64,000 nucleotides of DNA from Methanobacteriota archaeon (GCA_027064425.1 JAMOPO010000015.1:310001-374000); one strand, 5' to 3'; counted from the first letter of the stretch, positions 10,426 to 60,717 are shown. The notes: generated by a model from the sequence alone, not told the origin. Numbers and translations: made by a program.

Positions 10426-10446
10426 CGTTAGCTGTCGTTTAACGAT
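10426..10446. repeat. Degenerate copy of the CGTTA-TAACG intergenic repeat
   Basis: CGTTAGCT-GTC-GTTTAACG-AT in the 80-bp gap after pstS and before pstCA. It keeps the outer CGTTA and TAACGAT and the exact 8-3-8 spacing of the better copies at 24846, 45554 and 60696. It may mark a 3' end or processing point that makes PstS more abundant than the permease. Weakest member of the family. Confidence 0.4.
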
Positions 10447-10491
10447 ACCCGGGGTTGTAGAAATAATGCACGAGGGGGCGGGCCGGGGACC

Positions 10492-11466
10492 TTACACGAG
10501 GGGCTTGATCTCCACGAACGGCTTCTTCGTGAACAGCGGCGCGTTCGGCGGCACCGGCACGTAGCCCAGCGCCTCGGCGATCTTCTTGTTCACGTCCGGC
10601 TTCCGGACCCACTTGATCAGCGCGATCACCGTCTTCGGCGCGCTAGCCCGGTCGATGATCAGGTACTCGGCTCGCGTCAGCGGGTACTTCTTCGACTGGA
10701 TCGTCTGCTTGTTCGCCTCGATGCCGTTCACCTTCAGCGGCTTGACCACGCTCGGCACCTTCTTCTCCTTCTTGGCCTTCACGACGTACACGTAGTCCAC
10801 GTAGCCGATCGCGTACGGCGTCTTCTCCACCTTCTCTAGCACCTCCGAGTTGGAGCCGCACAGGATCGCGTCCTTCCGGTAGTCCTTGATGTTCAGGTAC
10901 TTGTCGAACGTCGCCCGCGTGCCCGAGCCCTTCGCTCGACCGATCACGATGATCTTCTTGTGCGGTAGACCCGGCTTGACTTGGTCCCAGTACTGGATCT
11001 TACCCTCGTAGATGGCCTTGAGCGTCTTCAGGTCGATGTTGTCCAGCTGGCCCAGCGTCTTACCGTTCACGATCGGCACGATGCCGGACATCACCACCGG
11101 GCACATCACCGGGTCGCTCAGCTGCTGCGCCTCCTCCGGCTTGATCGGCCGCGACGCCATCGCAATGTCGAACGAGCCGTCGATCAGTCCCTTGATACCC
11201 GCACCCGATCCACCGTCCGTGACCATCAGCTGCACCGGCTCGTTCGGCAGACCGCGCACGCCCACCTGGTCACCCAGCTGCTTCCACGTCATGCGCTGCT
11301 CCTCACCGAGCTTGCTGGCCACCTTCATCATGAACGGCATCAGGCTCGTTGAACCGCCGATCTTCAGCTGCGTTTTCACCTGGGATGCCGAGTAATAGTA
11401 CGCGACGCCGCCACCGATCGCCGCCACGATCGCGACCGCGATCGCGGCCAGTACGGGCTTCTTCAT
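10492..11466 (-). CDS. pstS: Phosphate-binding protein PstS
   Basis: Extracytoplasmic phosphate receptor of the Pst transporter. The 324-residue chain has an N-terminal hydrophobic segment after KK (residues about 5-27), then KIGGSTSLMPFM, TDGGSGAGIKGL, AMASRPIKPEE and GRAKGSGTRATFDKYL, all typical phosphate-loop and hinge regions of PstS. No lipobox cysteine is present, so it is probably held by an uncleaved signal anchor or released. First gene of the pst operon, behind a TATA-like CTTATAAAG about 40 bases upstream that it shares with the divergent PP-loop gene. Confidence 0.93.
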   Translation of the reverse strand: MKKPVLAAIAVAIVAAIGGGVAYYYSASQVKTQLKIGGSTSLMPFMMKVASKLGEEQRMTWKQLGDQVGVRGLPNEPVQLMVTDGGSGAGIKGLIDGSFDIAMASRPIKPEEAQQLSDPVMCPVVMSGIVPIVNGKTLGQLDNIDLKTLKAIYEGKIQYWDQVKPGLPHKKIIVIGRAKGSGTRATFDKYLNIKDYRKDAILCGSNSEVLEKVEKTPYAIGYVDYVYVVKAKKEKKVPSVVKPLKVNGIEANKQTIQSKKYPLTRAEYLIIDRASAPKTVIALIKWVRKPDVNKKIAEALGYVPVPPNAPLFTKKPFVEIKPLV

Positions 11467-11494
11467 GCCCTAGCGACCCCCTCCGCCGCCCTCG

Positions 11495-11532
11495 CATCAG
11501 GCTTTATAAGAGTAGCGGAGCGGGACATCAGG
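11495..11532. promoter_or_regulatory. Bidirectional TATA region flanked by CATCAGG direct repeats
   Basis: TTTATAAG at 11503-11510 reads as a TATA box toward both pstS (minus) and the PP-loop gene (plus). It is flanked by two identical CATCAGG heptamers at 11495 and 11526, 31 bp apart, about three helical turns. Spaced direct repeats around a promoter suggest a dimeric regulator, possibly phosphate-responsive. No named regulator can be assigned. Confidence 0.45.
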
Positions 11533-11560
11533 TTCACAAAATGGGAAGTGGGGTTCCCGC

Positions 11561-12433
11561 TTGAAGCACTGCCGAGTCTGCGGGATCCCGGCCGACGTGG
11601 AGGGGGTGGAGCTCGACGAGGAGGGCGTCTGCCGGGCCTGCCGGAGCCAGCTGCCCCACCTGCCTGACCCGGGGGAGCTGCGCGAGCGCGTGATCGAGGA
11701 GCTGGAGTCCCACGACCGGGTCGCTGTGGCCGTCTCCGGCGGTCTCGACAGCCTGGCCGCGCTCGTCCTAGCCGCCCGCCACTGCCGCGAGGTGACGATG
11801 GTCACGGTCGACACCGGCGCCATCCACCCGGAGGCCTGGCGCCGCCTCCACCTCGCCCGCCGCCGGCTCGACGTGGAGTGGCGCGTGGTCGGGGACGTCG
11901 ACACCTTCCTCGAGCTCTTCGAGCGGCGGCTACCGAGGAATCAGTCGCCCTGCGGCCCCTGCTCTAAGATGATCGAGCGCCGGTGCGAGCGGGCCGCACG
12001 GGAGCTCGGCGTCGATGCCCTCGTGACCGGGCACGAGCTCCCGCACGGGACCGACCCGGTCGTCCCCAAGGACCCGCCCGTAATCCGCGCCATGTGCGGG
12101 CTGCCGGAGCGGGAGAGACGGGAGCTCGTCCGGGAGGAGCTCGGACTGAGCCCGAGGAAGCTGGCCGGCTACACGTCAAACTGCGTCGTGCTACCCTTCG
12201 CCCTCAAGCGCTTCCACGAGGAGCATGGGTACAGCTTCGAGGCGCCGCGGCTCGCCGCGATGGTGCGCATGGGCTACCTCAGCAAGCGGGAGATGTGGGA
12301 GCGGCTCGAGCCACCCGGAGAGGAGGAGCTAAGGGGACTGCTGGAGGAATGCCGGGGATGGATACCGAGGCGGTTGGAGCGGCTCCTGAGGGAGACGTTG
12401 AGTTCAGCGAGTGGGCCCGAAAGTGGGGAATGA
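11561..12433 (+). CDS. PP-loop ATPase with zinc-binding cysteines
   Basis: Adenylating PP-loop enzyme, probably a tRNA- or cofactor-modifying sulfurtransferase or amidotransferase. The N-terminus has a zinc ribbon (CRVC and CRAC, residues about 4-30), then the PP-loop SGGLDSLAAL near residue 65, a CGPC motif near residue 134 and VTGHE. The 290-residue product starts with TTG. The stop overlaps the ATG of the next PP-loop gene (ATGA), so translation is probably coupled and the two proteins may act together. The exact substrate cannot be told from sequence. Confidence 0.75.
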   Translation: MKHCRVCGIPADVEGVELDEEGVCRACRSQLPHLPDPGELRERVIEELESHDRVAVAVSGGLDSLAALVLAARHCREVTMVTVDTGAIHPEAWRRLHLARRRLDVEWRVVGDVDTFLELFERRLPRNQSPCGPCSKMIERRCERAARELGVDALVTGHELPHGTDPVVPKDPPVIRAMCGLPERERRELVREELGLSPRKLAGYTSNCVVLPFALKRFHEEHGYSFEAPRLAAMVRMGYLSKREMWERLEPPGEEELRGLLEECRGWIPRRLERLLRETLSSASGPESGE

Positions 12434-13260
12434 CCAGTCTAAGGCGGCTCCTGAACCTGCTCAGAGAGCGGCTGGAGGGCGAGCGCGTCCACCTGATGCT
12501 CTCCGGCGGCCAGGACAGCGCCGTTGCGGCCCGCGTCCTCCAGCTCGCCGGGCTCAGGGTCTCCGCCGTGCACGTGACTCACCGCTGGACGTGGCCCACA
12601 CCCGGCCTGGAGGCGCGCCGAGTGGCCCGCCGGCTCGGCCTCAGGCTGCACGTCATCGACATCACGGACCGGCTGCTCGAGCGCCTCCCCGGGGCCAAGG
12701 GGAAGTCGGTGTGCAAGATCTGCAAGCGCGTGATGCTCGAGGCGGTGCTCGAGGAGCTGGGGCCCGAGGTGCTGGCCACGGGCGAGTGCGGGCTCGACAC
12801 GATCGCCGGGGCGGTCCTGGACCTCGCCCGCAGGACCGGCGAGGAGCCGGAGTTCGTCCAGGTGCCGAAGCGGTTCTTCGGGAACGATACGCGGGTTGTT
12901 AGACCGCTCATCCGGCTGCACGAGCGGGACGTGCTCCGGCTGGCCGAGGAGCTGGGAGTCCGGGTGCGTCGGGTGGGGGAGACCGGAGACCTCAGGCGCG
13001 GGCGGCGCGAGGGGTGCCCGCTGCAGCACCTGGATCCCGAGGTGACGATCACGGAAGGGTTGCTGGAGGAGGTTTGGCGGGTCAACCTCGCGGCCCTGCG
13101 CGCCGCCCGCGAGCTCGACCGGACGTTCGCGGTCAAGTGGCCCTCGTTCAGGCTCCTTCTGCCCGAATCCGGGGAGTGTGAGCGGAGGCTGGTGGCGGAG
13201 CGCGCCTGGGAGGAGGCGGTTCGGGCCGGGTTCTCGAGCCGCCTCGAGAAAAGCACTTAA
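12430..13260 (+). CDS. PP-loop ATPase, predicted tRNA-modifying
   Basis: Second PP-loop enzyme of the pair, 276 residues. The PP-loop reads LSGGQDSAVAARVL near residue 23; it also has a CKIC pair near residue 97, ATGECGLDT and a KRFFGNDTRVVRPL segment. The pattern resembles archaeal PP-loop proteins of the predicted thiouridylase-subunit type (COG2117-like), though this is family knowledge rather than proof. The start is taken at ATG 12430 inside the ATGA overlap with the preceding gene. It ends just before the iron-type palindrome that precedes the next cluster. Confidence 0.72.
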   Translation: MTSLRRLLNLLRERLEGERVHLMLSGGQDSAVAARVLQLAGLRVSAVHVTHRWTWPTPGLEARRVARRLGLRLHVIDITDRLLERLPGAKGKSVCKICKRVMLEAVLEELGPEVLATGECGLDTIAGAVLDLARRTGEEPEFVQVPKRFFGNDTRVVRPLIRLHERDVLRLAEELGVRVRRVGETGDLRRGRREGCPLQHLDPEVTITEGLLEEVWRVNLAALRAARELDRTFAVKWPSFRLLLPESGECERRLVAERAWEEAVRAGFSSRLEKST

Positions 13261-13264
13261 TAGA

Positions 13265-13280
13265 GTTAGGTCGTCCTAAC
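13265..13280. promoter_or_regulatory. DtxR-type palindromic operator before the Fe-S ATPase cluster
   Basis: GTTAGG-TCGT-CCTAAC, directly after a TATA-like TTAATA (13257-13262) and 18 bases before the first ATG of the cluster. The half-sites are identical to those upstream of feoA at 29563. The spacing and sequence match the TTAGG-N4-CCTAA core bound by DtxR/IdeR/MDR1 metal regulators. A bound repressor would block the TATA or initiation region. Confidence 0.7.
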
Positions 13281-13297
13281 GGCGGGGGTGAGGAGGA

Positions 13298-13702
13298 ATG
13301 GCCCGGTACCGGTACATCGGACCCTGTCGATGCGGGCTGGGTCCGCACGCGTTCTACGAGGACACGGAGACGGGAGAGATCAAGCACGCCTGGCAGATCC
13401 TGAGCGAGAGCGGGCTGCCGGTACCGGCGTGGCCCGGTGGTGGATGGGGACGTGGCTGGCGCGGAGGACCCGGCTGGGGAGGCGGCTGGTGGTGGGCGCT
13501 GGCCTCGGCGGACGAGGAGACGAGGAAGGAGATGATCGAGGCCATGCGGAAGGCCTTCGGCGAGGACCTCGCCAAGGCCATGGAGAGCTTCGTCGAGAGC
13601 TTGAAGTCATCGAGTGAAGTCTCGAAGGACGAGCTCAAGGAGCTGCGGGAGAAGCTCGAGGAGCTAGAGAAGAAGCTCAAGGAGCTGAGCGGGGAGGAGT
13701 AG
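13298..13702 (+). CDS. Small uncharacterised protein of the Fe-S ATPase cluster
   Basis: Not recognised with certainty. The 134 residues comprise an N-terminal part with a CRCG motif and HAFYED, a Gly/Trp-rich stretch (about residues 46-65), and a charged coiled-coil C-terminus of about 60 residues rich in KEL repeats. Small Gly-rich proteins of DUF5320 type accompany NifX-like and ferredoxin-ATPase genes in many archaea, and the position fits. A strong GGTGAGGAGG site precedes the ATG. First gene of a tightly packed five-gene unit likely under iron control. Confidence 0.6.
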   Translation: MARYRYIGPCRCGLGPHAFYEDTETGEIKHAWQILSESGLPVPAWPGGGWGRGWRGGPGWGGGWWWALASADEETRKEMIEAMRKAFGEDLAKAMESFVESLKSSSEVSKDELKELREKLEELEKKLKELSGEE

Positions 13703-13714
13703 GGGGAACCCGAC

Positions 13715-13960
13715 GTGCCCGCCGCCACCCGCAGCGGTGTGAAGGTCTTCCGGTGCTCGCGGTGCGGTGAGCTCATCGAGGTGCCCTACGGCGCCCCTAA
13801 GCCGACCAGCTGCCCCAACTGCGGCGCTCCGGCGGTCTTCATCCACCGCGTGAACCCGGGCCCGGGCACCTGGGGAGGTTACGCGGGCATCGGTCGCGGG
13901 ATGGGCCGCGGTGGACCGGGACGCGGTGGCCCCGGGCGCGGTCGCGGGGGTCCGCGGTAA
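13715..13960 (+). CDS. Zinc-ribbon protein with Gly/Arg-rich tail
   Basis: An 81-residue protein with one rubredoxin-like zinc ribbon (CSRC about residue 14, then CPNC about residue 33) and a C-terminal tail of repeated RGGPGRG units that may bind RNA or simply be disordered. It starts with GTG, 13 bases after the previous stop, and its stop directly abuts the next gene. Function unknown. The zinc or iron site and the context suggest a metal-sensing or metal-carrying accessory protein. Confidence 0.6.
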   Translation: MPAATRSGVKVFRCSRCGELIEVPYGAPKPTSCPNCGAPAVFIHRVNPGPGTWGGYAGIGRGMGRGGPGRGGPGRGRGGPR

Positions 13961-14290
13961 GTGCGCGTGGCGGTGATGGTCGAGGGCGACGGCGTCTCGG
14001 CCCGGTTCGCCCGCGCCCCCGAGATCCGGGTGTACGAGGTCGAGGACGACGAGGTCGAGCTCGTGGAGGCCAAGGAGAACCCGGCGGCCGGTCTGCCCCG
14101 TGGGGCCGGCCGGCAGATCGTCGGCGTGCTCACCCAGCTTGACGTGGACGCGACGGTCGCCGGCCGGTACGGTCCCAACGCCCTCCAGGGGCTGAAGGCG
14201 CAGGGCATCAAGGCCTACATCGCCGAGCCCGGGACGGACCCGGAGGAGGCCGCACGCAAGGCGGCCCGAGGCGAGCTGCCCGAGGGATGA
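13961..14290 (+). CDS. NifX/NifB-type cofactor-binding domain protein
   Basis: A 109-residue protein of the dinitrogenase iron-molybdenum cofactor family. Visible family features are the N-terminal VAVMVEGDGVSARFARAPE, a GRQIVGVLTQLDVDATVAG core and a YGPNALQGLKAQGIKAY segment. Such stand-alone domains bind Fe-S clusters or precursors and usually sit beside MinD-type ferredoxin ATPases, as here. No nitrogenase structural genes are in the window, so nitrogen fixation is not implied. GTG start immediately after the zinc-ribbon gene. Confidence 0.85.
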   Translation: MRVAVMVEGDGVSARFARAPEIRVYEVEDDEVELVEAKENPAAGLPRGAGRQIVGVLTQLDVDATVAGRYGPNALQGLKAQGIKAYIAEPGTDPEEAARKAARGELPEG

Positions 14291-14293
14291 TCG

Positions 14294-15073
14294 TTGAGGC
14301 TGGCCGTGACCGGCGGCAAGGGCGGCGTGGGTAAAACCACGGTCGCCGCTCACGCGCACCGGATCCTGGGCTGGGACGCGGTGGACCTGGACGTCACCGC
14401 CCCAAACCTGCACCTGTACCTCGACTGCGAGGAGGTCGAGCGCCGCCGCGTCCACCTATTGGGTCCCAAGGTCGACCCGGACTCGTGCACGCTCTGCGGC
14501 GAGTGCGCCCGGGCCTGTCCCGCCGGCGCCCTGATCGTCGGCCGGTCCTGGGACTTCGACCCCGACCTGTGCCACGGGTGTGGCCTGTGCGTGAGGGTGT
14601 GTCCTCGCGGGGCTTTAGATTACGTGGAAATTGAAATCGGCGAGGTCAGGGAGTACCGGGTCCGAGACACCGGGTCCCGGCTCCGCTCCGGTCGACTGAA
14701 CGTAGGGGATCGCCGCTCCCGGCACCTGGTGAACCACCTGCTGGACCGGCTTGAAGGAGACGAGATACTCCTCGACACGCCCGCCGGAGCCGGTAAGGAG
14801 GTCTACGACGCCCTCCGAGCGGCCGACGCCGCGCTCGTCGTCACCCAGCCCACCCCGGCCGCGTACCGCGACCTCCGCCGCCTCCTCCGGGTCGTGCGGG
14901 CCGCGGACCTGCCGCACGTGGTCCTGATCAACATGGCCGACGTCTCCGAGCGTTGGACCGAGAGGATCGAGCGGGAGGTCGACGCTCCCACGCTGAGGGC
15001 GCCCCGCGTGGACGACCCGCTGGAGTCCGACGAGCTCCGAGACGCCGTCCGGGCCGCGCTCGACGAGCTGTGA
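14294..15073 (+). CDS. MinD-superfamily P-loop ATPase with inserted ferredoxin domain (first copy)
   Basis: A 259-residue ATPase of the MinD/Mrp group with a two-cluster ferredoxin inserted after the first nucleotide-binding strands. The deviant Walker [11 protein letters not shown] lies near residue 7. Two 4Fe-4S motifs, [12 protein letters not shown] and [12 protein letters not shown], follow at about residues 62-105. The C-terminal half has [11 protein letters not shown] and [12 protein letters not shown]. Family members are thought to load or carry Fe-S clusters. It starts with TTG and is followed 13 bases later by a second, divergent copy, suggesting a heterodimer. Confidence 0.85.
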
Positions 15074-15086
15074 GGGCGGGGCCGAG

Positions 15087-15845: not shown

Positions 15846-15887
15846 CCCTCCCCCGTTTTCCACCGGATAAGCCGGCGGGTGAGCGCG

Positions 15888-15998
15888 ATGTCATCCTCCC
15901 GGCGCCGGAGTGAGCGGAGGCGGCGGCAGAGGCGGCGCCACCGCCCCTACGAGCCCTTCGAGGACGTCAAACACTACGACATCGCCGGCTGCAGCTAG
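15888..15998 (+). CDS. Small basic protein, possible
   Basis: A 36-residue frame with Arg making up about a third of the N-terminal half, then HRPYEPFEDVKHYDIAGCS. GGGTGA lies five bases before the ATG, the same spacing seen at strong starts in this window (rtcB), and this supports translation. It occupies the gap between the Fe-S ATPase cluster and the convergent GTPase gene. No homologue is recognised. GC-rich sequence easily yields Arg-rich frames, so it could be spurious. Confidence 0.4.
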   Translation: MSSSRRRSERRRRQRRRHRPYEPFEDVKHYDIAGCS

Positions 15999-16013
15999 GC
16001 CCCTCTTCGCGGT

Positions 16014-17066: not shown

Positions 17067-17106
17067 GATCCCGAGCCCGGACTCGGGACTCGGTCGGGGC
17101 GTATTG

Positions 17107-24625: not shown

Positions 24626-24845
24626 AGACCGCCGCTCAGTGTTCGTTCACCCTAAGAGAACGCGGCTTCGTCACACCGGCGCCGGGTCCCGGGGTCGCCC
24701 TGTCGGGGCGCGGGTACAGCGGCGGTCCGAGCTCAGGGCTAGGCGTGAGAGCCCAGTCAGCTCCCGGGCGAGGGCTGGACCTGGGGGCGGCGGGCGGGGC
24801 GAGTCCCGAAACGTCTGGAGGTGAGTCGAGGGCGGGTGGCTCCTT

Positions 24846-24867
24846 CGTTAAGATAATCGTAACGATT
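24846..24867. repeat. Intergenic inverted repeat, CGTTACGA-N3-TCGTAACG-ATT family
   Basis: CGTTAAGA-TAA-TCGTAACGATT, followed by CGTGG. One mismatch separates the left arm from a perfect inverted repeat. It lies 32 bases beyond the stop of the dehydroquinate synthase gene and shares arm sequence, 3-base spacer and right flank with the copies at 45554 and 60696. Confidence 0.7.
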
Positions 24868-24898
24868 CGTGGGGGGCGTGGGAGGGTGGGACCTGGGC

Positions 24899-26110
24899 CT
24901 ACTTCTCGATGATGCTCTCCTCGACCTCCATGCCGAAGTGGCGGCCCTTGCGCTCCTCGGTCTCGACGAAGGCGAGCACCTTGTCACCGGGCTTGAGGTC
25001 GACGACGGAGACGGGCTCGCCGTCCTCGCGGACGAGGTGGATGGTCTCGGCGTTCTGGACGATGGTTTGGATTTCGATGCCCTCGTACTCGGCCTTGATC
25101 AGGAGGAGCGGTCGCTTCTCGATCTTGAGGCGGCCGACGACGGCGGTGCGGGTGTTGCCGTCCTTGTCGACGATGAGGACCTCGTCGCCGGGCTCGAGCT
25201 CGGAGAGGTACTTGGTCTTGCCGCCGGGCACGCGGATGTACGCGTGGACGGGCCCGGCGTTGACGCGGAAGGGCCGCGGTTCGACGTAGGGGTTGTCGAG
25301 GCTCTCGCTGTGGATCAGGAACATGCCGCGGGCGGTGGAGCCGACGAGCATGCCCTCTCCTTCCTCCATGAGGGTGCAGGTGTCGACGCAGACGCGGTCT
25401 CCCTTGCCGATGGGCTCGATCTCCTTGATCTCGACGGGGACGAGCTCGAACTTCTCGGCGGTGACCTCCTCGGCCACCTCGGCCGTCTTCTTGATCTCGC
25501 CCGGCTCGATGCGCTGGGCGTCGAGCAGCACGCCGTCGGAGCCGACCTCGAGGGTCTCGAAGGCGATCTTGGCCTCCTCCGCGTCCCGGGCGCCGGCGAT
25601 GATCTTGGTGGGCTCGTCCTGGAGCTCGGCGATCAGGTTCTCGAGTGGGATGATCTTCCAGTCGCGGCCGATGGCGATCAGGTAGTCGGGCTCGAGCTCC
25701 TTGGAGATGTCGGCGGCGAAGCGCTCGTAGGGCTTGTCCTCGATCTCGACGTACTCGGCGACCTCGTAGCCCGCCTCCTTAACCCGACGGATGAGCTCTC
25801 CGTCGATGGACTCGCTCACGTCGTCGGGCAGGTCGATCGTGCCGTCGCCCTCGCCTCGGATGCCGACGATGACGAGGTCGGCGTCGACGTTCTCCAGCTC
25901 GTCGAGGGCCAGGTCGGGCGAGCCGCCCTCGGCCGCGAGCGGGACGGCGACCTTGACGTTGCCCAGCTCCTTGACCTTCTCCACCTCCTCCGGTAGGCAG
26001 ACGATCACGTCCGCGCCGGCCTCGATGGCCTCGGTGACGAAGGGCTTCTTCTCCTCCCACGAGCCCTCAAAGGCGATCGAGACCCAAACCTCCTTCTTCT
26101 CGTCGCTCAT
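24899..26110 (-). CDS. aroB': 3-dehydroquinate synthase II (AroB')
   Basis: Second enzyme of the archaeal alternative early shikimate route: NAD-dependent oxidative deamination and cyclisation of 2-amino-3,7-dideoxy-D-threo-hept-6-ulosonate to 3-dehydroquinate. The 403-residue protein shows the family's conserved stretches VWVSIAFEGSWEEKK, GSDGVLLDAQRIEPGEIKK, DRVCVDTCTLMEEGEGMLVGS and RPFRVNAGPVHAYI. It is preceded by the gene for the first enzyme with a 7-base gap, forming a two-gene aromatic amino acid operon, possibly with a winged-helix gene at its front. Confidence 0.92.
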   Translation of the reverse strand: MSDEKKEVWVSIAFEGSWEEKKPFVTEAIEAGADVIVCLPEEVEKVKELGNVKVAVPLAAEGGSPDLALDELENVDADLVIVGIRGEGDGTIDLPDDVSESIDGELIRRVKEAGYEVAEYVEIEDKPYERFAADISKELEPDYLIAIGRDWKIIPLENLIAELQDEPTKIIAGARDAEEAKIAFETLEVGSDGVLLDAQRIEPGEIKKTAEVAEEVTAEKFELVPVEIKEIEPIGKGDRVCVDTCTLMEEGEGMLVGSTARGMFLIHSESLDNPYVEPRPFRVNAGPVHAYIRVPGGKTKYLSELEPGDEVLIVDKDGNTRTAVVGRLKIEKRPLLLIKAEYEGIEIQTIVQNAETIHLVREDGEPVSVVDLKPGDKVLAFVETEERKGRHFGMEVEESIIEK

Positions 26111-34701: not shown

Positions 34702-35349
34702 ATGACGGCACGCCCGGAACCCGGGGTGGCGCGAGTGACCTGGCAGGGCGCCCCATTGCCTTCGGATCCCGTGGAGCGGATTCGGTGCCTGCGCGTGCTC
34801 CGGGAGGCGTATCGGCGGCAGGTCAAGCCCGAGCTGCGAGAGACGTACCGGCGGGTTGGCGGGAAGACGTACGGGCCTTATTACGTCGCGTACTTTAAGC
34901 GGACTCCGGGGCGCCGGCACCCCAGGCTGATCTACCTGGGCAAGTCGGGCCCGAGCGTCGAGTTCGTCGAGTGGCTCGCCGAGCAGTCGAGGAGAACCGT
35001 GCTTGACCTTGCTCGACTCGCGGTGCGGCACCTTCGAGCCGCGCTCGAGCGGATCGTTGAGGAGGCTCGCGGGTCGGGGGACTCGCGCCGGCTAATCGCC
35101 CGCACCCTCGCCCTCGCCTTCGACCTCGAGCCCGCAGGACTCCCCCAGCTCCGCGACCTCCTCGACCGAGCACCCAGGTTCGCGAGGACCGTGCTCGGCC
35201 CCTGGAAAGCCTGGTTCACCGAGCGGGTGCTCAGAAAGCTCCTCTACCGCCGGTCTCGGGATGGTAAGCGCTGGGTGCCCGACGTTCAGCTCGAGCTTGA
35301 GCGGTGGCGGTCCGGGCGCGGGGCGCGGTGCGACCGGACGCGACCGTGA
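34702..35349 (+). CDS. Basic uncharacterised protein, DUF6788-like N-terminus
   Basis: A 215-residue Arg-rich protein. The segment GKTYGPYYVAYFKRTPGRRHPRLIYLGK (shown here in part; residues about 52-80) resembles the YGPYY...YLGK signature of DUF6788 proteins, which often occur in mobile or poorly conserved archaeal loci. The rest is helical and basic (RRTVLDLARLAVRHLRAAL), ending with KRWVPDVQLELERW, and could bind nucleic acid. ATG 34702 follows a TATA box closely. It borders the 452-bp region where strand composition flips. Function unknown. Confidence 0.6.
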   Translation: MTARPEPGVARVTWQGAPLPSDPVERIRCLRVLREAYRRQVKPELRETYRRVGGKTYGPYYVAYFKRTPGRRHPRLIYLGKSGPSVEFVEWLAEQSRRTVLDLARLAVRHLRAALERIVEEARGSGDSRRLIARTLALAFDLEPAGLPQLRDLLDRAPRFARTVLGPWKAWFTERVLRKLLYRRSRDGKRWVPDVQLELERWRSGRGARCDRTRP

Positions 35350-35501
35350 TCTCCGCGGGACACTCGGCGTGAGCGTCGGCTCGGGTCGGTCGGGCTCGCT
35401 CCGGGTCGCGAGCGTTTTCCGGGGGTCATGTCCTCCATCGTGTTGGCACCCTCGGCTCGGGGCGGCCCCGAAGCCTGCGCCCCCACCGCTCGGAAACGGG
35501 T

Positions 35502-35523
35502 CGTTATGGGGCTTGTAACGTTC
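35502..35523. repeat. Degenerate intergenic inverted repeat
   Basis: CGTTATGG-GGC-TTGTAACGTTC, then CGTGG. Same 8-3-8 spacing and right flank as the copy at 24846, with decayed inner arms. It lies exactly 97 bp before another copy. Confidence 0.5.
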
Positions 35524-35598
35524 CGTGGGCGGCCTCGGGGCCCGCGACTCCGATCATCCCCGGCGGTCGCCGTGGGTCCACCTCATCATCGGCCGGTT

Positions 35599-35620
35599 CG
35601 TTCCGGTGGTCGTAACGATT
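35599..35620. repeat. Intergenic inverted repeat copy followed by T-tract
   Basis: CGTTCCGG-TGG-TCGTAACGATT, followed by GGGTTTTTC. The right arm and ATT flank are perfect; the left arm has two changes. The T-run would suit a terminator for plus-strand transcripts. Confidence 0.6.
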
Positions 35621-35653: not shown

Positions 35654-35711
35654 GCGGGATGAGGAGAACCCCGGTCTCTGAGGTGTGATGAGGGATAGGC
35701 GTGCCGACCGC
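35654..35711 (+). ncRNA. Candidate box C/D guide RNA
   Basis: Ordered elements: stem GCGG (35654), C box GGGATGA (35656-35662, one mismatch), 15-base guide, D' box CTGA (35678), 3-base spacer, C' box GTGATGA (35685), 12-base guide, D box CCGA (35704), stem CCGC (35708). The 58-base length, spacing and terminal stem fit archaeal C/D sRNAs, which are abundant in Methanopyrus. The D box has C in place of U. The guide targets were not worked out. Confidence 0.5.
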
Positions 35712-42513: not shown

Positions 42514-44469
42514 TTGAGCGAAGGAGGTGGCAGGAAATCGCTGAGCGAGGTGAAGAAGGAGATCAAAGAGAAGGTGGAGGAGGTCCTCCCCTCAGACATC
42601 GTCGTAACCGACGTGGACTTCGAGGGTCCCGAGGTCGTCATCTACACCAACTCGCCCCACTCCTTCGTCAAGGACGACTCCGACCTCATCACCCGGCTAG
42701 CCAAGGCCCTGCGCAAGCGCGTCAAGATCCGACCCAACCCCAGCGCCCTCTCCCCCGCCAAGGACGCGAAGAAGGTCATCCTGGACATCATCCCGGAGGA
42801 CGCCGGCGTCGACGAGCGGGACCTGCTCTTCCTGGAGACCGGTGAGGTCGTCATCTTCGCCAAGAAGCCGGGCCTCGTCATCGGTAAGCGCGGCAAGAAC
42901 GTGCACAAGATCTCCCGGGACACCGGCTGGGTCCCGAAGATATACCGGAAACCGCCCATCCCCTCCAAGACCGTCAACACGACCCGCCGGCTCATCCTCT
43001 CCGACGACTCCCGCCGCGAGTTCCTCAAGAACGTCAGCGAGCGCATCTTCTGCGGCCGCACGCGCAGCCGCGGCAGCGAGTCCCGCTGGGCCCGCGTCAG
43101 CGCGCTCGGCGGGTTTCAGGAGGTCGGCCGCTCCGCTCTCTTCCTGCACACCGAGGAGAGCCGCGTGCTCCTTGACTGCGGCGTGAACGTCGCCGCCAAC
43201 GGCCGGGACGCGTACCCGCACTTCAACGTGCCCGAGTTCCGGATGGACGACCTGGACGCCGTCGTCATCACCCACGCGCACCTCGACCACTGCGGCTTCC
43301 TGCCCTACTTCTACCGGCACGAGGTCATCGAGAGCCGCGTGCCCGTGTACTGCACGCCGCCCACCCGCGACCTGATGTACCTCCTCCTCATTGACTACAT
43401 CAAGGTCATGGAGAAGCGCGGTCAGGAGCCCCCGTACACCGAGAAGGACGTCAAGAAGGTAATCAAGCGCACGATCACCCTCAACTACCGCGAGCCCACC
43501 GACATCACCCCGGACATCAGCATCACCTTCTACAACGCCGGCCACATCCTCGGCTCCGCCTCCGTGCACGTGTTCCTTCAGGACAAGGGCTACAACTTCG
43601 TGTACACGGGAGACATCAACCCGACCCCGTCCCGCCTCCTCGAGGGCGCGGACAATCAGTTCAAGCGCGTGGACTGCATGGTCATCGAGGCCACCTACGG
43701 CGACTCCCGGCACGGCAGCCGGCGCAAGGAGGAGGCCCGCTTCCGGAAGATCGTCCAGGAGACCATCCGGAAGGGTGGAAAGGTCCTCATCCCCTCCTTC
43801 GCCGTCGGGCGCGCCCAGGAGGTCATGCTCGTCCTCGAAGACATGTACCGCAAGGGCGAGCTCGAGTGCCCCGTGTACCTCGACGGCATGATCTACGAGG
43901 CGACCGCCATCCACTCCACCTACCCCGAGTACCTCAACAAGCGCCTCCAGCACCGGATCCTCCACGAGGACGACGACCCGTTCACCTCCGAGGTGTTCGA
44001 GCCCGTCGAGGGCTCCGACCACCGGCGCGCGATCATCGAGGACGATGACCCGGCCGTGATCCTCTCCACCTCCGGCATGCTCGAGGGCGGACCCATCCTC
44101 GAGTACCTCAAGGAGCTCTCCGAGGACCCTAAGAACACGCTCGTGTTCGTGGGCTACCAGGCCGAGGGCACGCTGGGTCGGCAGATTCAGGAGGGTGCCA
44201 AGGAGGTCCCGCTCCCCACCCCGGAGGGCAAAACCGAGACGCTCCGGATCAAGCTCCGCGTCGAGACCGTGAGCGGGTTCAGCGGCCACGGCGACAAGAT
44301 CGAGCTGACCAAGTACGTCCGGACGGTCAAGCCCTCCCCGCCACCGAAGATCTTCACCAACCACGGCGAACCCAAGGCCTGCAAGCACCTGTCGAACCAC
44401 TTAAGGCGGACGTTCAGGAAGGTTTTCTCCATGGCCCCTGAGAACCTCGAGTGCTTCCGGCTGACGTGA
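42514..44469 (+). CDS. aCPSF1/FttA beta-CASP ribonuclease
   Basis: A 651-residue KH-KH-metallo-beta-lactamase-beta-CASP protein, the archaeal CPSF73 homologue that cuts RNA and acts as the transcription termination factor. The N-terminal KH part has GLVIGKRGKNVHKI; the metallo-beta-lactamase core has THAHLDHCGFLPYF and FYNAGHILGSASVHVF; beta-CASP motifs include FAVGRAQEVMLVLE and GFSGHGDKIELTKY with a final NHGE. It starts with TTG. It is probably one enzyme reading the 3' ends of genes in this window, which makes the nearby intergenic repeats of interest. Confidence 0.94.
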   Translation: MSEGGGRKSLSEVKKEIKEKVEEVLPSDIVVTDVDFEGPEVVIYTNSPHSFVKDDSDLITRLAKALRKRVKIRPNPSALSPAKDAKKVILDIIPEDAGVDERDLLFLETGEVVIFAKKPGLVIGKRGKNVHKISRDTGWVPKIYRKPPIPSKTVNTTRRLILSDDSRREFLKNVSERIFCGRTRSRGSESRWARVSALGGFQEVGRSALFLHTEESRVLLDCGVNVAANGRDAYPHFNVPEFRMDDLDAVVITHAHLDHCGFLPYFYRHEVIESRVPVYCTPPTRDLMYLLLIDYIKVMEKRGQEPPYTEKDVKKVIKRTITLNYREPTDITPDISITFYNAGHILGSASVHVFLQDKGYNFVYTGDINPTPSRLLEGADNQFKRVDCMVIEATYGDSRHGSRRKEEARFRKIVQETIRKGGKVLIPSFAVGRAQEVMLVLEDMYRKGELECPVYLDGMIYEATAIHSTYPEYLNKRLQHRILHEDDDPFTSEVFEPVEGSDHRRAIIEDDDPAVILSTSGMLEGGPILEYLKELSEDPKNTLVFVGYQAEGTLGRQIQEGAKEVPLPTPEGKTETLRIKLRVETVSGFSGHGDKIELTKYVRTVKPSPPPKIFTNHGEPKACKHLSNHLRRTFRKVFSMAPENLECFRLT

Positions 44470-44496
44470 CCCCAACCGTGGCCGAGGGTGGTGCCC

Positions 44497-45537
44497 GTGA
44501 GCGAGCAGATGACGTACAAGGACGCGGGCGTGGACATCGACAAGGAGGCCCTCGCCGTCAGGGCGATCCGGGAGGTCCTCGAGCGGCACCGGATCGAGCC
44601 CGAGGAGTGCGAGGAGGTCGAGGGGATCGGCCACTACGCCGCGGTCCTGCGCGTGCGCGACCAGCTCATGACGCTCAACGTGGACGGGGTCGGCTCGAAG
44701 GTCCTCGTCGCCCAGCTCGTGGACCGGTACGACACCGTGGGCATCGACGCGATCGCGATGAACGCGAACGACGCGATCTGCCTGGGCGCACGGCCCGTCG
44801 CCTTCCTCGATTACTTGGCCATGGAAGACCCGGACCCGGACGTGTGTCGGGAGATCGCTAAGGGGCTGGCCGAGGGGGCCAAGGAGGCCGGTGCGCCGGT
44901 CGTGGGCGGCGAGCTCGCCACCCTGCCCGAGATCGTGCGGGGCGAGCGGGAGGGTCGCGGCTTCGACCTGGTCGTGGCCTGCCTAGGGCTCCTGGACGGG
45001 GAGCCCGTGACGGGTGAGGAGATCGAGCCGGGTGACGCGATCGTCGGGCTCCGCAGCTCGGGGATCCACAGCAACGGGCTCACCCTGGCTCGGAAGGTCC
45101 TGCTCCGGGAGTACGATCCGGACGACGAGCTGCCGCACGGTCGAACGGTGGCGGAGGAGCTGCTCGAGCCGACGCGAATCTACGTGCGCCCGGTCCTGAG
45201 GGTGCTGGAGGAGTTCGAGGTGCACGGGATCGCGCACATTACCGGGGGCGGGTTCGAGAACCTGAAGCGGCTGCGGGAGGACGTGCGCTACGTCATCGAC
45301 GACCCGCTGAAGCCCCAGCCGATCTTCGAGATCATCCGGGAGCTGGGCAACGTCCCGCTGGACGAAATGTACCGGACGTTCAACATGGGGATGGGAATGG
45401 CGCTCGTGGTTCCGGAGGAGGAGGCGGAGGACGTGGTGGACGCGGTCTCGGGCGAGGTGGAGGCGAAGGTGGTGGGTCGAGTCGAGGAGGGCGAGGGCGT
45501 GGTGATTGAGGCGGAGGAGGGGAAGGTCCGGCTCTGA
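44497..45537 (+). CDS. purM: Phosphoribosylformylglycinamidine cyclo-ligase (AIR synthetase)
   Basis: ATP-dependent ring closure of FGAM to AIR in purine synthesis. About 346 residues with TLNVDGVGSKVLVAQLV, AMNANDAICLGARPVAFLDYL, GGELATLPEIV, GLRSSGIHSNGLTLARKV, HITGGGFENLKRL and a terminal NMGMGMALVVPEE. GTG 44497 is preferred because GGGTGG sits five bases upstream; GTG 44488 would add three residues. A near-perfect inverted repeat follows 17 bases after the stop and separates it from the convergent ribosomal operon. Confidence 0.95.
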   Translation: MSEQMTYKDAGVDIDKEALAVRAIREVLERHRIEPEECEEVEGIGHYAAVLRVRDQLMTLNVDGVGSKVLVAQLVDRYDTVGIDAIAMNANDAICLGARPVAFLDYLAMEDPDPDVCREIAKGLAEGAKEAGAPVVGGELATLPEIVRGEREGRGFDLVVACLGLLDGEPVTGEEIEPGDAIVGLRSSGIHSNGLTLARKVLLREYDPDDELPHGRTVAEELLEPTRIYVRPVLRVLEEFEVHGIAHITGGGFENLKRLREDVRYVIDDPLKPQPIFEIIRELGNVPLDEMYRTFNMGMGMALVVPEEEAEDVVDAVSGEVEAKVVGRVEEGEGVVIEAEEGKVRL

Positions 45538-45553
45538 TCGCCCCCGGTGGAAA

Positions 45554-45575
45554 CGTTACGAATCTCGTAACGATT
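45554..45575. repeat. Best copy of the intergenic inverted repeat
   Basis: CGTTACGA-ATC-TCGTAACG with flank ATTGGG. The two 8-base arms are perfectly complementary with a 3-base loop. It lies between the converging purM (17 bp away) and L32e (41 bp away) genes, a position suited to a bidirectional terminator or boundary site. Confidence 0.8.
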
Positions 45576-45615: not shown

Positions 45616-46020
45616 TCAGGCGTTCAGGACCACGATGCCCAGCTCCTCCGCCTTCTTGAGGATCTCGCGCCGCTTGCGCTTACCGACGCGGGAGGCGATC
45701 CGCGCCGCCTGGCGCTCCGGGTCGATCTTCTCCAGGTCCTTCGGGTTGTAAACGAGCACCTCCTCGTACCCGGACGGGTGCAGGCCGCGCACCTTCTTCG
45801 GTGACCGGTAGCCCGGGTTGGGCATCTTGGGCTTGCCCTTCAGCTTGCGGCGCATCTTGCTGTGCCGACCCTTGGGCCGGCGCCACTTCTCGCCCAGGCG
45901 CTTGTACCGGTGCCACTCCTGGCGCCGGAACTTGGGCTTCTTGCGCTTAAGCTCCTCCCGGAGCTTGAGCAGGCGCTCCTCCTCCTTGGACAGGTTCGGG
46001 TTGCGGACCAAGGGCGCCAC
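45616..46020 (-). CDS. rpl32e: Ribosomal protein L32e
   Basis: Large-subunit protein of 134 residues with the L32e core [37 protein letters not shown] and [20 protein letters not shown]. It begins with GTG, four bases after the L6 stop region. It is the last gene of the ribosomal operon here; the usual archaeal successors L19e and L18 do not follow, so the operon is broken at this point. Confidence 0.95.
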
Positions 46021-54221: not shown

Positions 54222-54263
54222 GGGGCGGGGACGATCCCGCCCTCGCTCAAGGAGCTCGCGGCG

Positions 54264-54626: not shown

Positions 54627-54628
54627 GG

Positions 54629-54961: not shown

Positions 54962-54965
54962 ACCC

Positions 54966-56649: not shown

Positions 56650-56675
56650 CCGGGAGACACCCCGGGGGGCCCGGG

Positions 56676-57908
56676 TTGGCCAGCGTAGCCGAGCGTATCC
56701 TGTCTGAAAAATGTGGCGAGCGCGTCGAGGCCGGAGACGTCGTGGCCATCGAGCCGGACGTGATCATGCTGCACGACGGGTCCGGGGCCACGGCCCTCCG
56801 GACCCTCCGGGAGCTAGGGACGGAGCGCGTGAGGCGGCCGGAGAAGGTCGTCCTAATCTTCGACCACTCCGTCCCACCCAGCTCGGTGGAGGCGGCCAAC
56901 CGGCAGAACGAGCTCCTCGAGTTCGCCCGGCGGCACGGGATCGAGCGCGTCCACGTGGACGAGGGAATCTGCCACCAAATCCTCGTGGAGGAGGGGTACG
57001 CCCAACCGGGCCGCGTCGTCTTCGGCGGGGACTCGCACACCCCGACCGTTGGAGCCGTTTCCGCCCTCGGGTTCGGCTTCGGCGGCACCGACATGGCCTT
57101 CACGCTGCTGTACGGTGAGCTCTGGATCCGCGTACCCCGGACCATCCGAGTACACGTGACCGGGGAGCTCGAGGCGGGGGTCACGGCGAAGGACCTGGCC
57201 CTAACCATCGTCGGCGAGCTGGGGGCCGGGTACGCGGACTACGCCGTTCTCGAGTACACCGGCCTGCCGGAGCGCCTGCCCACGGGCGACCGAATGTGCC
57301 TGTGTAACCTGGCCACGGAGGCGGGGGCCAAGTCCGCCTACGTACCGCCCAAGGACGGTCCCGAGGACCTGCGGCCCGGGGACGCCGACGAGGTCGTCGA
57401 GGTCGACGCCTCAGAGGTCGAGCCGGTCGTCTCCGTCCCGGACGCCGTGGACGACGTGAGGCCGGTCGGAGACGTGCAGGGCACCGAGATCACCCGGGTG
57501 TTCGTCGGCTCGTGCACCAACGGTCGGTACCGGGACGTTAGGGCGTTCACGGAGGCGCTGGACGCGCTCGGCGGCCCCGACTCGGACGTCCGAGTCGTGG
57601 TCGTGCCGGCCTCCCGACGCGTTCTGCTCAAGCTGACCCGGGACGGGACCCTGGAGCGCCTCCTCGAGCTCGATGTGACCGTGGCCCCGCCCGGGTGCGG
57701 TCCCTGTCTGGGCGAGCACATGGGCGTGCTGGGCGACGACGACGTGTGCGTCTCCACCGCCAACCGCAACTTCCCGGGCCGAATGGGGTCGACCGAGGCC
57801 GACATCTACCTGGCCAGCCCGCTCACCGCGGCCGTGGCCGCCGCCCTGGGGGAGCTCGCGGACCCGCGCGAGGAGCTCCCCGACAGCGTGCTGGAACGGG
57901 TGGGATGA
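56676..57908 (+). CDS. aksD: Homoaconitase large subunit (AksD)
   Basis: 4Fe-4S hydro-lyase subunit, 410 residues, of the LeuC/AksD group. The cluster cysteines are visible in SCTNGR and in APPGCGPCLG, with other family parts FGGDSHTPTVGAVSALGFGFGGTDMAF (in pieces) and STANRNFPGRMGS. Paired four bases later with the small subunit whose specificity loop resembles homoaconitase. It isomerises homocitrate and longer homologues for coenzyme B synthesis; leucine pathway use cannot be excluded. TTG start. Confidence 0.9.
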   Translation: MASVAERILSEKCGERVEAGDVVAIEPDVIMLHDGSGATALRTLRELGTERVRRPEKVVLIFDHSVPPSSVEAANRQNELLEFARRHGIERVHVDEGICHQILVEEGYAQPGRVVFGGDSHTPTVGAVSALGFGFGGTDMAFTLLYGELWIRVPRTIRVHVTGELEAGVTAKDLALTIVGELGAGYADYAVLEYTGLPERLPTGDRMCLCNLATEAGAKSAYVPPKDGPEDLRPGDADEVVEVDASEVEPVVSVPDAVDDVRPVGDVQGTEITRVFVGSCTNGRYRDVRAFTEALDALGGPDSDVRVVVVPASRRVLLKLTRDGTLERLLELDVTVAPPGCGPCLGEHMGVLGDDDVCVSTANRNFPGRMGSTEADIYLASPLTAAVAAALGELADPREELPDSVLERVG

Positions 57909-57911
57909 GCC

Positions 57912-58415
57912 GTGAGGTGGGAGGGACGCGCCTGGGTGTTCGGCGACGACGTTGACACGGACCAGATCATCCCGGGCCGCTACCTCCGGCGGGTCTCCTA
58001 CGACGAGCTGGGCAGGTACGCGATGACGGGGGCGGACCCGGAGTTCCCGGAGAAGGTCCGGGAGGGTGACATCATCGTCGCGGGCCGGAACTTCGGGTGC
58101 GGCTCCTCCCGGGAGCAGGCGGTCATGGCGCTGCAGCAGGCCGGGGTCGCGTGCGTCGTCGCACGCTCCTTCGCTCGGATCTTTTACCGGAACGCTCTGA
58201 ACCGGGGTCTGCCGACGATCGAGGCGCGCGGGGATCCCACGGAGGTCGTTGAGGACCGTGAGAGGGTCGTCGTCGACCTGGACGAGCTCGTTCTGAGGAC
58301 AGGGTCGGGCGAGGTGCCCCTCCGCGAGCCACCCGAGTTCGCCCTGAGGGCCTGGCGAGAGGGCGGTCTGCTGGAGCTTGCCAGGGAGGACCCGGAGCGG
58401 CCGCCGTGGCGATGA
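57912..58415 (+). CDS. aksE: Homoaconitase small subunit (AksE)
   Basis: Swivelling domain of the homoaconitase, 167 residues. Conserved parts: VFGDDVDTDQIIPGRYLRRVSY, GDIIVAGRNFGCGSSREQA and SFARIFYRNALNRGLP. The loop after RY reads LRR, closer to the YLRT loop described for methanogen homoaconitase than to the isopropylmalate isomerase version; this is recalled from the family and not tested here. GTG start. Its 3' end may overlap the UPF0146 gene. Confidence 0.88.
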   Translation: MRWEGRAWVFGDDVDTDQIIPGRYLRRVSYDELGRYAMTGADPEFPEKVREGDIIVAGRNFGCGSSREQAVMALQQAGVACVVARSFARIFYRNALNRGLPTIEARGDPTEVVEDRERVVVDLDELVLRTGSGEVPLREPPEFALRAWREGGLLELAREDPERPPWR

Positions 58416-58800
58416 CGCCGAGCTGCGCCTCCTCCTGCGGGCCGTCAGGGAGTTGGGCGCGAGCCGGGTCGTGGAGGTGGGCCACGGGAGGAACCTACGG
58501 TACCTCTCGTTCCTGCGAGAGCACGGGGTGGACGCGGTCGGGGTCGAGACGCGAACCGAGCACGTCCGGAGGGCGCTGGCTCGGGGCCTACCCTCGGTGA
58601 ACGTGGACGCGGTCGGGGAATCGGGCTGGGTCAGGCGGGTGCTGAGGCCCGACCTGGTCTACTCGGCGCGGCCCCCGGTGGAGCTGGCTCTGGGCCTCTT
58701 GAGGGAGTATTCCCCGGTGCTGCTGAGAATGAGGGAGGAAGAGCGGTGGGAGCTGCCGGAGCCGACCCGCCGGTTGGGACCCTGGGACCTCTACGCCTAG
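58378..58800 (+). CDS. UPF0146 family protein
   Basis: About 140 residues with a truncated Rossmann-like fold: SRVVEVGHGRNLRYLSFLREHG, VDAVGVETRTEHVRRAL and PDLVYSARPPVELALGLL, matching the small archaeal UPF0146 family, which resembles a methyltransferase half. Function unknown. The 5' end is unsure: TTG 58378 gives a 38-base overlap with aksE, and a later TTG is possible. The last four bases overlap the convergent ABC permease gene. Confidence 0.78.
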   Translation: MPGRTRSGRRGDDAELRLLLRAVRELGASRVVEVGHGRNLRYLSFLREHGVDAVGVETRTEHVRRALARGLPSVNVDAVGESGWVRRVLRPDLVYSARPPVELALGLLREYSPVLLRMREEERWELPEPTRRLGPWDLYA

Positions 58801-59909
58801 AGGTACTCCCGGACACGGTCGTACAGGACCGAGCCCGCGGCCAGGAAGCCCAGCGTAAAGCCCAGCAGGATGAGCAGGTCCACGGGGTCCAGGTAGCCCA
58901 GCAGCGCGGCCTTCCGGGCCGCGTCACCCATGTAGTACATCGGGTTGATGAGGGCGAACGCCCGGGCCCAGCCCGGCATGACGCTGATCGGCATGAAAAT
59001 GCCGGAGAGGAACATCATCGGGATGGTCACCGCGCCCGTGGCCATCTCCGCGACCTCGGAGCGGCCGGCGAGCGACGCCATGAGGAGGCCGAGCCCGACC
59101 ATCGTGGCGGCGGATAGCGCCCCCACCAGGAACAGCAGGACGGGGTGGAGGATCTTCGCGCCCAGGGCCAGCGCGACGAGCACGACGATCGCGCACCTGA
59201 CGCATCCCCAGATGGTCATGTTCACGAACCGGCCGATGACGACGTCCCGCGCCCGGATGGGGGCCGCGAAGAGGGCGTAGGCCACGCCCAGCTCGATCTC
59301 CTCCATCATGAGGCGCCCGAGCCCGAAGATGGAGCCCATCGCCGCGGTCATGACGGCCAGTCCCGGGACCAGGTAGTCGAAGTACTTCATTCCCTTCACC
59401 GGCGTTTGCACGCGAAACGGGTTGAACTGCGGCACGTGGACGGGCCGCTCGGGCGCCGCTTTCAGCACCGGGGCCAGCCGCCTCACGGAGGACTTGACGG
59501 TGCCCGCCACGTGCCTCGCCCAGGACCGCTGGATCTTGTTCAGGACGTACCGGGAGCCCATCGGATCGGTTGGATCGTAATAGACCGTGGCCTTGCGGTC
59601 CGGGAACCCGGACGGCAGGTACAGAAAGACCGAGGCCGAGCCCCGCCGAACCAGGTCGCGTCCCTCTCGAACGCTCTTCACGTGGATCAGGTGGATCCGA
59701 TGATCGCACCTCAGCTGGTCAACGATCGGGTCCCCGGCGCCCGAGTCGTGCCGGAGGATCGCGACGTTGACGCTGGTTGGCTTCACGTCGTGGAAGGCCC
59801 CGTACATCACGATCATCATGACGATGGGCGTGACGATGGTGACCGTCACCCGCCTCCGGTCCTTCACCCAGGCCTTGAAGTCCCGGGCGGCGATCGTGCG
59901 CCAGCTCAC
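58797..59909 (-). CDS. ABC-2 type transporter permease
   Basis: Membrane subunit of an ABC exporter, 370 residues. One N-terminal helix (VTVTIVTPIVMMIVMYG), an external domain of about 140 residues (PSGFPDRKATVYYDPTDP and following), and five C-terminal helices including VPGLAVMTAAMGSIFGLGRLM and the ABC-2 motif region GIFMPISVMPGWARAFALINP. Substrate unknown; drug, lipid or surface polymer export are typical. The ATPase gene ends four bases upstream. Confidence 0.88.
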   Translation of the reverse strand: MSWRTIAARDFKAWVKDRRRVTVTIVTPIVMMIVMYGAFHDVKPTSVNVAILRHDSGAGDPIVDQLRCDHRIHLIHVKSVREGRDLVRRGSASVFLYLPSGFPDRKATVYYDPTDPMGSRYVLNKIQRSWARHVAGTVKSSVRRLAPVLKAAPERPVHVPQFNPFRVQTPVKGMKYFDYLVPGLAVMTAAMGSIFGLGRLMMEEIELGVAYALFAAPIRARDVVIGRFVNMTIWGCVRCAIVVLVALALGAKILHPVLLFLVGALSAATMVGLGLLMASLAGRSEVAEMATGAVTIPMMFLSGIFMPISVMPGWARAFALINPMYYMGDAARKAALLGYLDPVDLLILLGFTLGFLAAGSVLYDRVREYL

Positions 59910-59913
59910 GCCC

Positions 59914-60621
59914 TCACTCCCCCGCCACCTGCGCCGCGACGGACCGGTACGCGTCCAGCACGGACCCGTGCTCGCTCATCAGCCGGTCGAACGGCTCGTC
60001 CAGGGCCTTGCGGCCCTCCAGGAAGATCAGGACGCGGTCCGGCTCCAGCTGCTCCACCTCGTGAACGTCGTGGGAGACGTAGAGGACCGTCGTCCCCGAC
60101 TCGTTGTACTCGCGCACGGCCTCTATCACGTCCTGCCGGGCCGTCGGGTCCAGCTCGTTGGTCGGTTCGTCGAGCACCAGGATCTCGGGCCGGAGGGCGA
60201 GGGCCAGGGCGACGGCGGCGCGCTTCCGCATGCCGCCGGAGAGGTGCTCCACGCGCCGGTCCATGTACTCGTGCACCTCCAGGAGCTCGAACGGCTCCTC
60301 GTCCGGCTCGACACCGTACAGCTCGGCGTAGAACCGGACGTTCTCCCGAACGGTCTGCTCGAGGTACAGCCCTCCCTGCTGAGGCACGATGGAGACGCGG
60401 CGCTTGATGTCCGGGTCGGACGGGTCGCCCCCCAGGACGCGGATCTCGCCCCTGGTGGGCCTGGTGACGCCGCACACGATCTTGATGAACGTGGACTTGC
60501 CGGCACCGTTGGGGCCGAGGATGGCCACGAGCTCTCCCCGGTCTATGTCGACGTTCACGGAGCGGAGGGCGACGACCCGCCCGTACTCCTTCCACAGGTT
60601 CGTGGCCTGGACGGCGGACAA
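59914..60621 (-). CDS. ABC transporter ATPase
   Basis: ATP-binding partner of the ABC-2 permease, about 235 residues: Walker A GPNGAGKSTFIK, Q-loop VPQQGGLYLEQTVRENV, signature LSGGMRKRAAVAL and Walker B ILVLDEPTNELDPTARQD. TTG 60621 follows GGGGGGT and gives a standard N-terminus (SAVQATNLWKEYG); ATG 60666 would add 15 residues of low similarity. Operon with the following permease. Confidence 0.88.
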   Translation of the reverse strand: MSAVQATNLWKEYGRVVALRSVNVDIDRGELVAILGPNGAGKSTFIKIVCGVTRPTRGEIRVLGGDPSDPDIKRRVSIVPQQGGLYLEQTVRENVRFYAELYGVEPDEEPFELLEVHEYMDRRVEHLSGGMRKRAAVALALALRPEILVLDEPTNELDPTARQDVIEAVREYNESGTTVLYVSHDVHEVEQLEPDRVLIFLEGRKALDEPFDRLMSEHGSVLDAYRSVAAQVAGE

Positions 60622-60695
60622 GGTGACCCCCCGCGGCGTCGCCCGGCCGCCCACGCCTTTGGTCATTCACCCGGGGACCGCGGTTGGAGGAGGGT

Positions 60696-60717
60696 CGTTT
60701 CGAACATCGTAACGATT
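60696..60717. repeat. Intergenic inverted repeat copy
   Basis: CGTTTCGA-ACA-TCGTAACGATT, followed by CGT. One mismatch between arms. It lies 17 bases beyond the stop of the macro-domain gene, before the ABC ATPase gene on the same strand. Confidence 0.7.

Follow-up and report, generated by a model that had tools for sequence, protein, structure and literature searches.

Termination of transcription in archaea is currently explained by U-tracts and aCPSF1, a system that works at the RNA level, and TFS is the RNA cleavage factor that rescues backtracked polymerase. REP/BIME elements are palindromes located at gene ends and in convergent gaps. In yeast, Reb1 halts RNA polymerase I (Pol I) 15 bp upstream of its own site, and suppressed RNA cleavage commits the enzyme to termination (PMC12366685). 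For Methanopyrus kandleri AV19, which belongs to a heat-loving archaeal genus, the motif CGTTA(N)9TAACG was published in 2017 after about half of the transfer RNA (tRNA) genes, approximately 10 bp downstream, and was read as a signal for tRNA maturation (PMC5217627). Here we analyzed a 64,000-nucleotide stretch of DNA from a Methanobacteriota archaeon (GCA_027064425.1 JAMOPO010000015.1:310001-374000; hereafter the window) that carries copies of an intergenic inverted repeat, and we propose that this repeat is a 25-bp palindrome which probably serves as a DNA-level terminator.

The palindrome shares its core, spacing and genus with the AV19 motif. The first-pass annotation of the window knew of no named element that matches; it is true that no name exists, but the AV19 motif is a published, shorter form of the same site (PMC5217627). 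The element described here is 25 bp long with its stronger arm nearer the gene, follows all tRNA genes checked rather than about half, and is also found after other stable RNAs and protein genes. Like the roadblock terminators of Pol I (Reb1, Nsi1 and TTF-I), it is a sequence-specific DNA site at a set distance just past the RNA 3' end, and, as in those protein-bound roadblocks, lost cleavage rescue may favor termination. However, the Pol I roadblocks serve ribosomal RNA (rRNA) genes, whereas here the bound protein is putative and the sites follow tRNAs, other RNAs and some messenger RNAs; moreover, the palindrome is dyad-symmetric, has no T-rich tract and is spaced more tightly than the 15 bp of Reb1. 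The aCPSF1 (FttA) pathway is the 3'-end system of the same domain and its gene is present here, but its known signal is a U-tract in RNA, whereas the site described here is a palindrome in DNA with, in the case of protein genes, a C-rich tract in front of it. Bacterial intrinsic terminators are likewise inverted repeats beyond the gene, but the palindrome forms no stable or covarying hairpin and has no U run. Finally, unlike REP/BIME elements, it is short, keeps a strict register to RNA ends and lacks a stable stem.

A family of 25-bp palindromes in the window and genome

The pattern CGTTACGANNNTCGTAACG, allowing at most 3 mismatches, has five matches in the window (24846, 35502, 35599, 45554 and 60696) compared with 0.18 expected, and none of 100 shuffled windows contained five (maximum, 2). 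Genome-wide (1.54 Mb, 57 contigs), the same 19-bp pattern finds 85 sites, compared with 0 for a reversed control. These data confirm that the repeat family is real, in the window as in the genome. The first-pass annotation had listed the same five copies and a sixth at 10426 (CGTTAGCTGTCGTTTAACG), which is weak and retains only the outer CGTTA-N9-TAACG. As it reported, all six are intergenic, by gene calls from our own Markov script rather than a curated annotation, and ATT lies 3' of the right arm at 24846, 35599, 45554 and 60696. Its 8-3-8 inverted repeat of 19 bp was recovered as a pattern, but alignment of the sites revealed that the unit is a 25-bp dyad, AATCGTTACGA-RNY-TCGTAACGATT, and that the "ATT" belongs to it as the outermost part of one arm.

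The palindrome follows all stable-RNA genes checked

The palindrome follows 31/31 tRNA genes of the source genome (Rfam model), 31/31 of M. kandleri AV19 (G002) and, in a third Methanopyrus, G001, 28/28 of those checked out of 31; the tRNA counts cover these three genomes. The commonest distance in the source genome is 8 nt after the discriminator base, that is, CCA plus 5 nt. In AV19 and G001, the gap between discriminator and element is 8-11 nt when CCA is encoded and 6-7 nt when it is not (p = 6e-7; several cut-offs, distances and motif words, CACGCC among them, were tried with no multiple-test correction). Measured from the encoded RNA end, however, the gap is 5-8 nt with CCA and 6-7 nt without, a similarity indicating that the element is placed relative to the encoded end. 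Its orientation on tRNA genes is that of the tRNA, and the tRNA-proximal arm is nearer to the consensus than the distal arm (in each genome, p of about 5e-5 or less). Three more sites follow tRNA-like 3' halves called by neither program, which may represent tRNAs with introns such as those reported in PMC3695527.

Other stable RNAs carry the element as well: it lies within 7-23 nt of the 3' ends of tRNA-Sec, 5S rRNA, signal recognition particle (SRP) RNA and RNase P RNA, and sites are located 83-396 nt from the 3' ends of 16S and 23S rRNA. In tandem arrangements, namely a pair of tRNA genes and tRNA-Ala with 23S behind it, each in three genomes, a TATA-like promoter sequence (read by eye) stands between the element and the next stable-RNA gene, which is the pattern expected of separate units ended by the element. 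The separation of tRNA-Ala from 23S by an element and a TATA-like promoter (L058 1-765, L109 and L148, in the three genomes) suggests that the two genes may be separate transcription units in the genus.

That the element keeps so closely to the encoded tRNA end in all three species would also be expected if the motif were an RNA-level signal for tRNA 3' maturation, read by a maturation enzyme, as speculated previously (PMC5217627), and tRNA maturation in M. kandleri is unusual (PMC3695527). However, the element is not confined to tRNA genes but also follows 5S, SRP RNA, RNase P RNA, rRNAs and protein genes, and its dyad symmetry and equal half-sites, with no helix, are unexpected for recognition of single-stranded RNA. 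We therefore regard a maturation signal as unlikely.

The symmetry of the palindrome points to recognition of DNA

Across three species, 90 tRNA-linked sites were analyzed for symmetry and pairing. When each half-site is read on its own strand, the two share their base preferences (r = 0.95), with GTT and AAC showing no or almost no variation. Pairing over 8 bp is possible in 20/90 sites and over 10 bp in 7. Covariation between the arms is near chance, with a few uncorrected p-values of 0.01-0.04 among 22 tests of position pairs, 11 for each of two sets. Folding predictions at 37 °C favor the sites over shuffled sequence, as would hold for any palindrome, but no fold is predicted for any site at 90 or 98 °C. 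Symmetric arms, little or no covariation and the absence of a fold at 90-98 °C together argue for a double-stranded DNA site for a symmetric protein. The palindrome is best read as the DNA site of a putative symmetric protein and not as an RNA hairpin, and a hairpin as a general requirement was rejected, given few pairable arms, near-chance covariation and no fold at these temperatures.

A role as an RNA hairpin or aCPSF1-dependent RNA terminator would be in keeping with the palindromic sequence, with a C-rich, G-poor tract upstream of the element at protein genes, and with aCPSF1 (TIGR03675), which is over the cut-off in 5/5 Methanopyrus genomes. Nevertheless, C-A mismatches are nearly as frequent as independent arms predict (22 seen and 27 expected in one comparison, 14 and 18 in the other), and the U-tract that is the known aCPSF1 signal (PMC8716108), a run of U4 or more directly upstream of the RNA 3' end, is missing: the short tRNA trailers between RNA end and palindrome contain none, and the site flanks show no consistent T run. 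In its known form, the aCPSF1 signal raised as an option by the first-pass annotation is not supported, and we consider any RNA-level terminator of this kind quite improbable.

The first-pass annotation also took a shared polarity in the window to argue mildly for a chromosomal function. Genome-wide, both orientations occur (57/55), and orientation follows the tRNA on tRNA genes; neither this leaning nor a polarity linked to the replication origin was supported.

The palindrome marks the ends of a set of protein genes

Gene context was scored in stretches around sites and tRNA genes, so the counts below do not amount to a full-genome census, and the background for gaps was drawn from these site-selected stretches and the window. 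The position weight matrix (PWM) used for orientation was trained on tRNA sites, which leaves uncertain how near-symmetric sites at protein genes are oriented. In the stretches examined, a site occurs 11-55 nt beyond the stop codon of 26 protein genes. Sites adjoin the genes for McrB, thermosome, AtpA, polyferredoxin and a rubrerythrin-like protein, those for ribosomal proteins L32e, S15 and the L7Ae family, and, less obviously, those for 3-dehydroquinate (DHQ) synthase II, TruD and a macro-domain protein. Many of the marked genes are of types that are usually highly expressed.

None of 84 sites scoring at least 15 lies inside a called gene; the lack of enrichment outside genes that the first-pass annotation had named as refuting the family was thus not observed. 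Divergent gaps contain 0/47 non-tRNA sites (score at least 20), although they account for 33/154 gaps of at least 30 nt (p = 8e-5). The 3' flanks of the 26 marked genes are C-rich and G-poor: the first 12 nt past the stop contain on average 7.3 C, compared with 4.4 for 89 genes without a site (p = 1e-8), and CACGCC, a word chosen after reading the sequences, occurs at 9/26 marked and 0/89 unmarked gene ends.

Were the palindrome a REP/BIME-like site for topoisomerase loading, insulation or replication blocking that is placed where strongly transcribed genes end, and no terminator itself, this would account for the location at stable-RNA genes and usually highly expressed gene types, as well as for sites in convergent but not divergent gaps. 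Such a role needs neither the 5-8 nt spacing nor a strong arm facing tRNA genes, and the promoter-like sequence that separates the element from the next gene of a tandem RNA pair also speaks against it; we rate it as improbable.

Comparison with AV19 showed that orthologous sites are conserved at DHQ synthase II, AtpA and one further gene. A small mobile palindrome or passive repeat, another option raised initially, could explain why the copies are dispersed and similar, but it does not fit the fixed 5-8 nt register to tRNA 3' ends across species, the retention of these orthologous positions or the absence of copies inside genes, and is very unlikely indeed.

The palindrome is restricted to Methanopyrus, which lacks a recognizable TFS

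A profile search gave matches in 5/5 Methanopyrus genomes and in 0/26 other archaeal genomes. A search of genome_contigs yielded no exact full-length match, a set from which the own genus is possibly excluded. These searches suggest that the palindrome is restricted to the genus. An 18-base core occurs once each in three viral contigs, which we judged to be near chance.

TFS falls below the family cut-off in 5/5 Methanopyrus genomes, with weak partial matches only, while it is over the cut-off in 4/14 control genomes (the controls include four archaea). This agrees with the literature, according to which M. kandleri is without TFS (PMC1177939).

Sites in the window

The profile used to recover sites in the window was trained on tRNA-linked sites only and included no window site. 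The features are as follows.

45551..45575, minus strand: best copy of the 25-bp palindrome (tRNA-site profile, E 5e-7)
24843..24867, minus strand: palindrome (profile match 24845-24867, E 1e-4)
24868..24898, minus strand: tract rich in C and poor in G that separates the stop codon from the palindrome, a possible accessory element
60693..60717, minus strand: palindrome (profile match 60695-60717, E 2.9e-4)
35499..35523, plus strand: degenerate palindrome in a convergent gap (score 22.8; profile match 35501-35522, E 0.005)
35596..35620, minus strand: degenerate palindrome in a convergent gap (PWM score 22.9)
10423..10447, minus strand: very weak palindrome (score 10.1, compared with 24-46 for tRNA-linked sites)

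The copies at 45554, 24846 and 60696 are strong, that at 35502 is moderate, and those at 35599 and 10426 are weaker. The site at 45551..45575 is shared by two convergent genes: the gene for ribosomal protein L32e (45616-46020, minus) has its stop 40 nt before the strong arm, and that for PurM (44488-45537, plus) 13 nt before the other arm. This element was not found in AV19 (comparison stretch L169) but recurs in G003, where it is downstream of the aCPSF1 gene (L170). In the window, the gene for aCPSF1, the archaeal termination ribonuclease, is at 42514-44469 (plus), two genes upstream of the 45554 element.

The site at 24843..24867 lies 31 nt past the stop of DHQ synthase II (24899-26110, minus), beyond the C-rich tract, and is kept at the AV19 orthologue (protein 82% identical); that at 60693..60717 lies 16 nt past the stop of the macro-domain protein gene (60734-61258, minus). 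At 45554, 24846 and 60696 the stronger arm points to a minus-strand gene end, and the common plus-strand polarity in the window thus arises from the neighboring genes. The 35499..35523 site is 149 nt past a DUF1678 gene (34726-35349, plus), and the 35596..35620 site was missed by the profile. The 10423..10447 site, 44 nt past a PstS-type gene (10492-11466, minus), may be a chance match or a decayed copy.

Other elements and small RNA candidates

An element is located between mcrB and mcrD-mcrC (L047 2204-2228; C26:20003), where it possibly lowers expression of the accessory genes relative to mcrB. Another lies approximately 215 bp upstream of the first repeat (Rfam CRISPR-DR11) of a CRISPR array (L133 1527-1551; AV19 1111226). 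A gene for a small zinc-ribbon-like protein (CPNC...CEEC; L048 2168-2460, minus), which the gene caller missed, stops immediately ahead of the element at C26:42681.

Repeated copies of CAACTTATACGATGAGCTCGC precede elements by about 60-80 nt, separated from them by a GC-rich stretch that varies, and constitute a candidate family of small noncoding RNAs. Its copies are:

L026 (C2): CAACTTATACGATGAGCTCGC copy
L037 (C13): CAACTTATACGATGAGCTCGC copy
L059 (C48): CAACTTATACGATGAGCTCGC copy
G003 C31:39717: CAACTTATACGATGAGCTCGC copy

The 3' ends of C/D-box small RNAs (sRNAs) were not supported as the main class of sites, with only isolated cases nearby; the window contains weak C/D-box sRNA candidates at 61381-61437 (minus) and 35655-35709 (plus), both below the Rfam gathering score.

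Discussion

Among the options raised at the outset, a terminator or 3'-end signal is favored by the evidence. We consider it probable, though well short of certain, that the palindrome is a DNA-level terminator, in which a putative dimeric, sequence-specific protein on AATCGTTACGA-N3-TCGTAACGATT past the gene end stops or releases the polymerase. In this model, the symmetric protein would bind directly beyond the gene and block RNA polymerase, which would halt or be released. The absence of TFS would make the roadblock effective, leaving the polymerase committed as in yeast Pol I. Every stable-RNA gene checked, and a small number of protein genes, would be closed in this way, and a single element could serve both members of a convergent pair. 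We speculate that the folded T-arm of the tRNA, about 8-11 nt upstream of the 3' end, may aid release in the manner of a terminator hairpin; its distance resembles the hairpin-to-end distance of bacterial terminators quoted in PMC12366685.

Several observations weigh against this terminator model. The RNA end is only 5-8 nt from the edge of the palindrome and 9-12 nt from the invariant GTT, a geometry so tight that a rigid roadblock would clip the last bases of the tRNA unless the polymerase pushes in. At some protein-gene sites the weaker arm faces the gene end, and full termination is not expected at the element between mcrB and mcrD. Additionally, TFS is dispensable in Thermococcus, with a modest effect on elongation through histone chromatin (PMC10899632); therefore, its absence need not matter, and the link to TFS is inference only.

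A stronger form of the model, which we put forward tentatively and regard as doubtful, is that a dedicated DNA-binding factor, in the absence of TFS, recognizes a universal palindrome and makes the polymerase stop no more than a few bases from where each stable RNA has its mature 3' end. Such a factor would be an archaeal counterpart of Reb1 and TTF-I that sets tRNA 3' ends directly.

What is new here is that the element follows every tRNA gene checked in three species and extends to further stable RNAs and to protein genes, together with the spacing rule, the case for DNA over RNA recognition and the proposed reading as a terminator. To our knowledge, a stop signal of this kind has not been described in archaea. 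If the terminator model is true, it would represent a second way of ending archaeal transcripts, comparable with the roadblock termination of eukaryotic Pol I, and it might be linked to the absence of TFS in Methanopyrus. The element would also be a marker of gene ends, including those of unannotated small RNAs.

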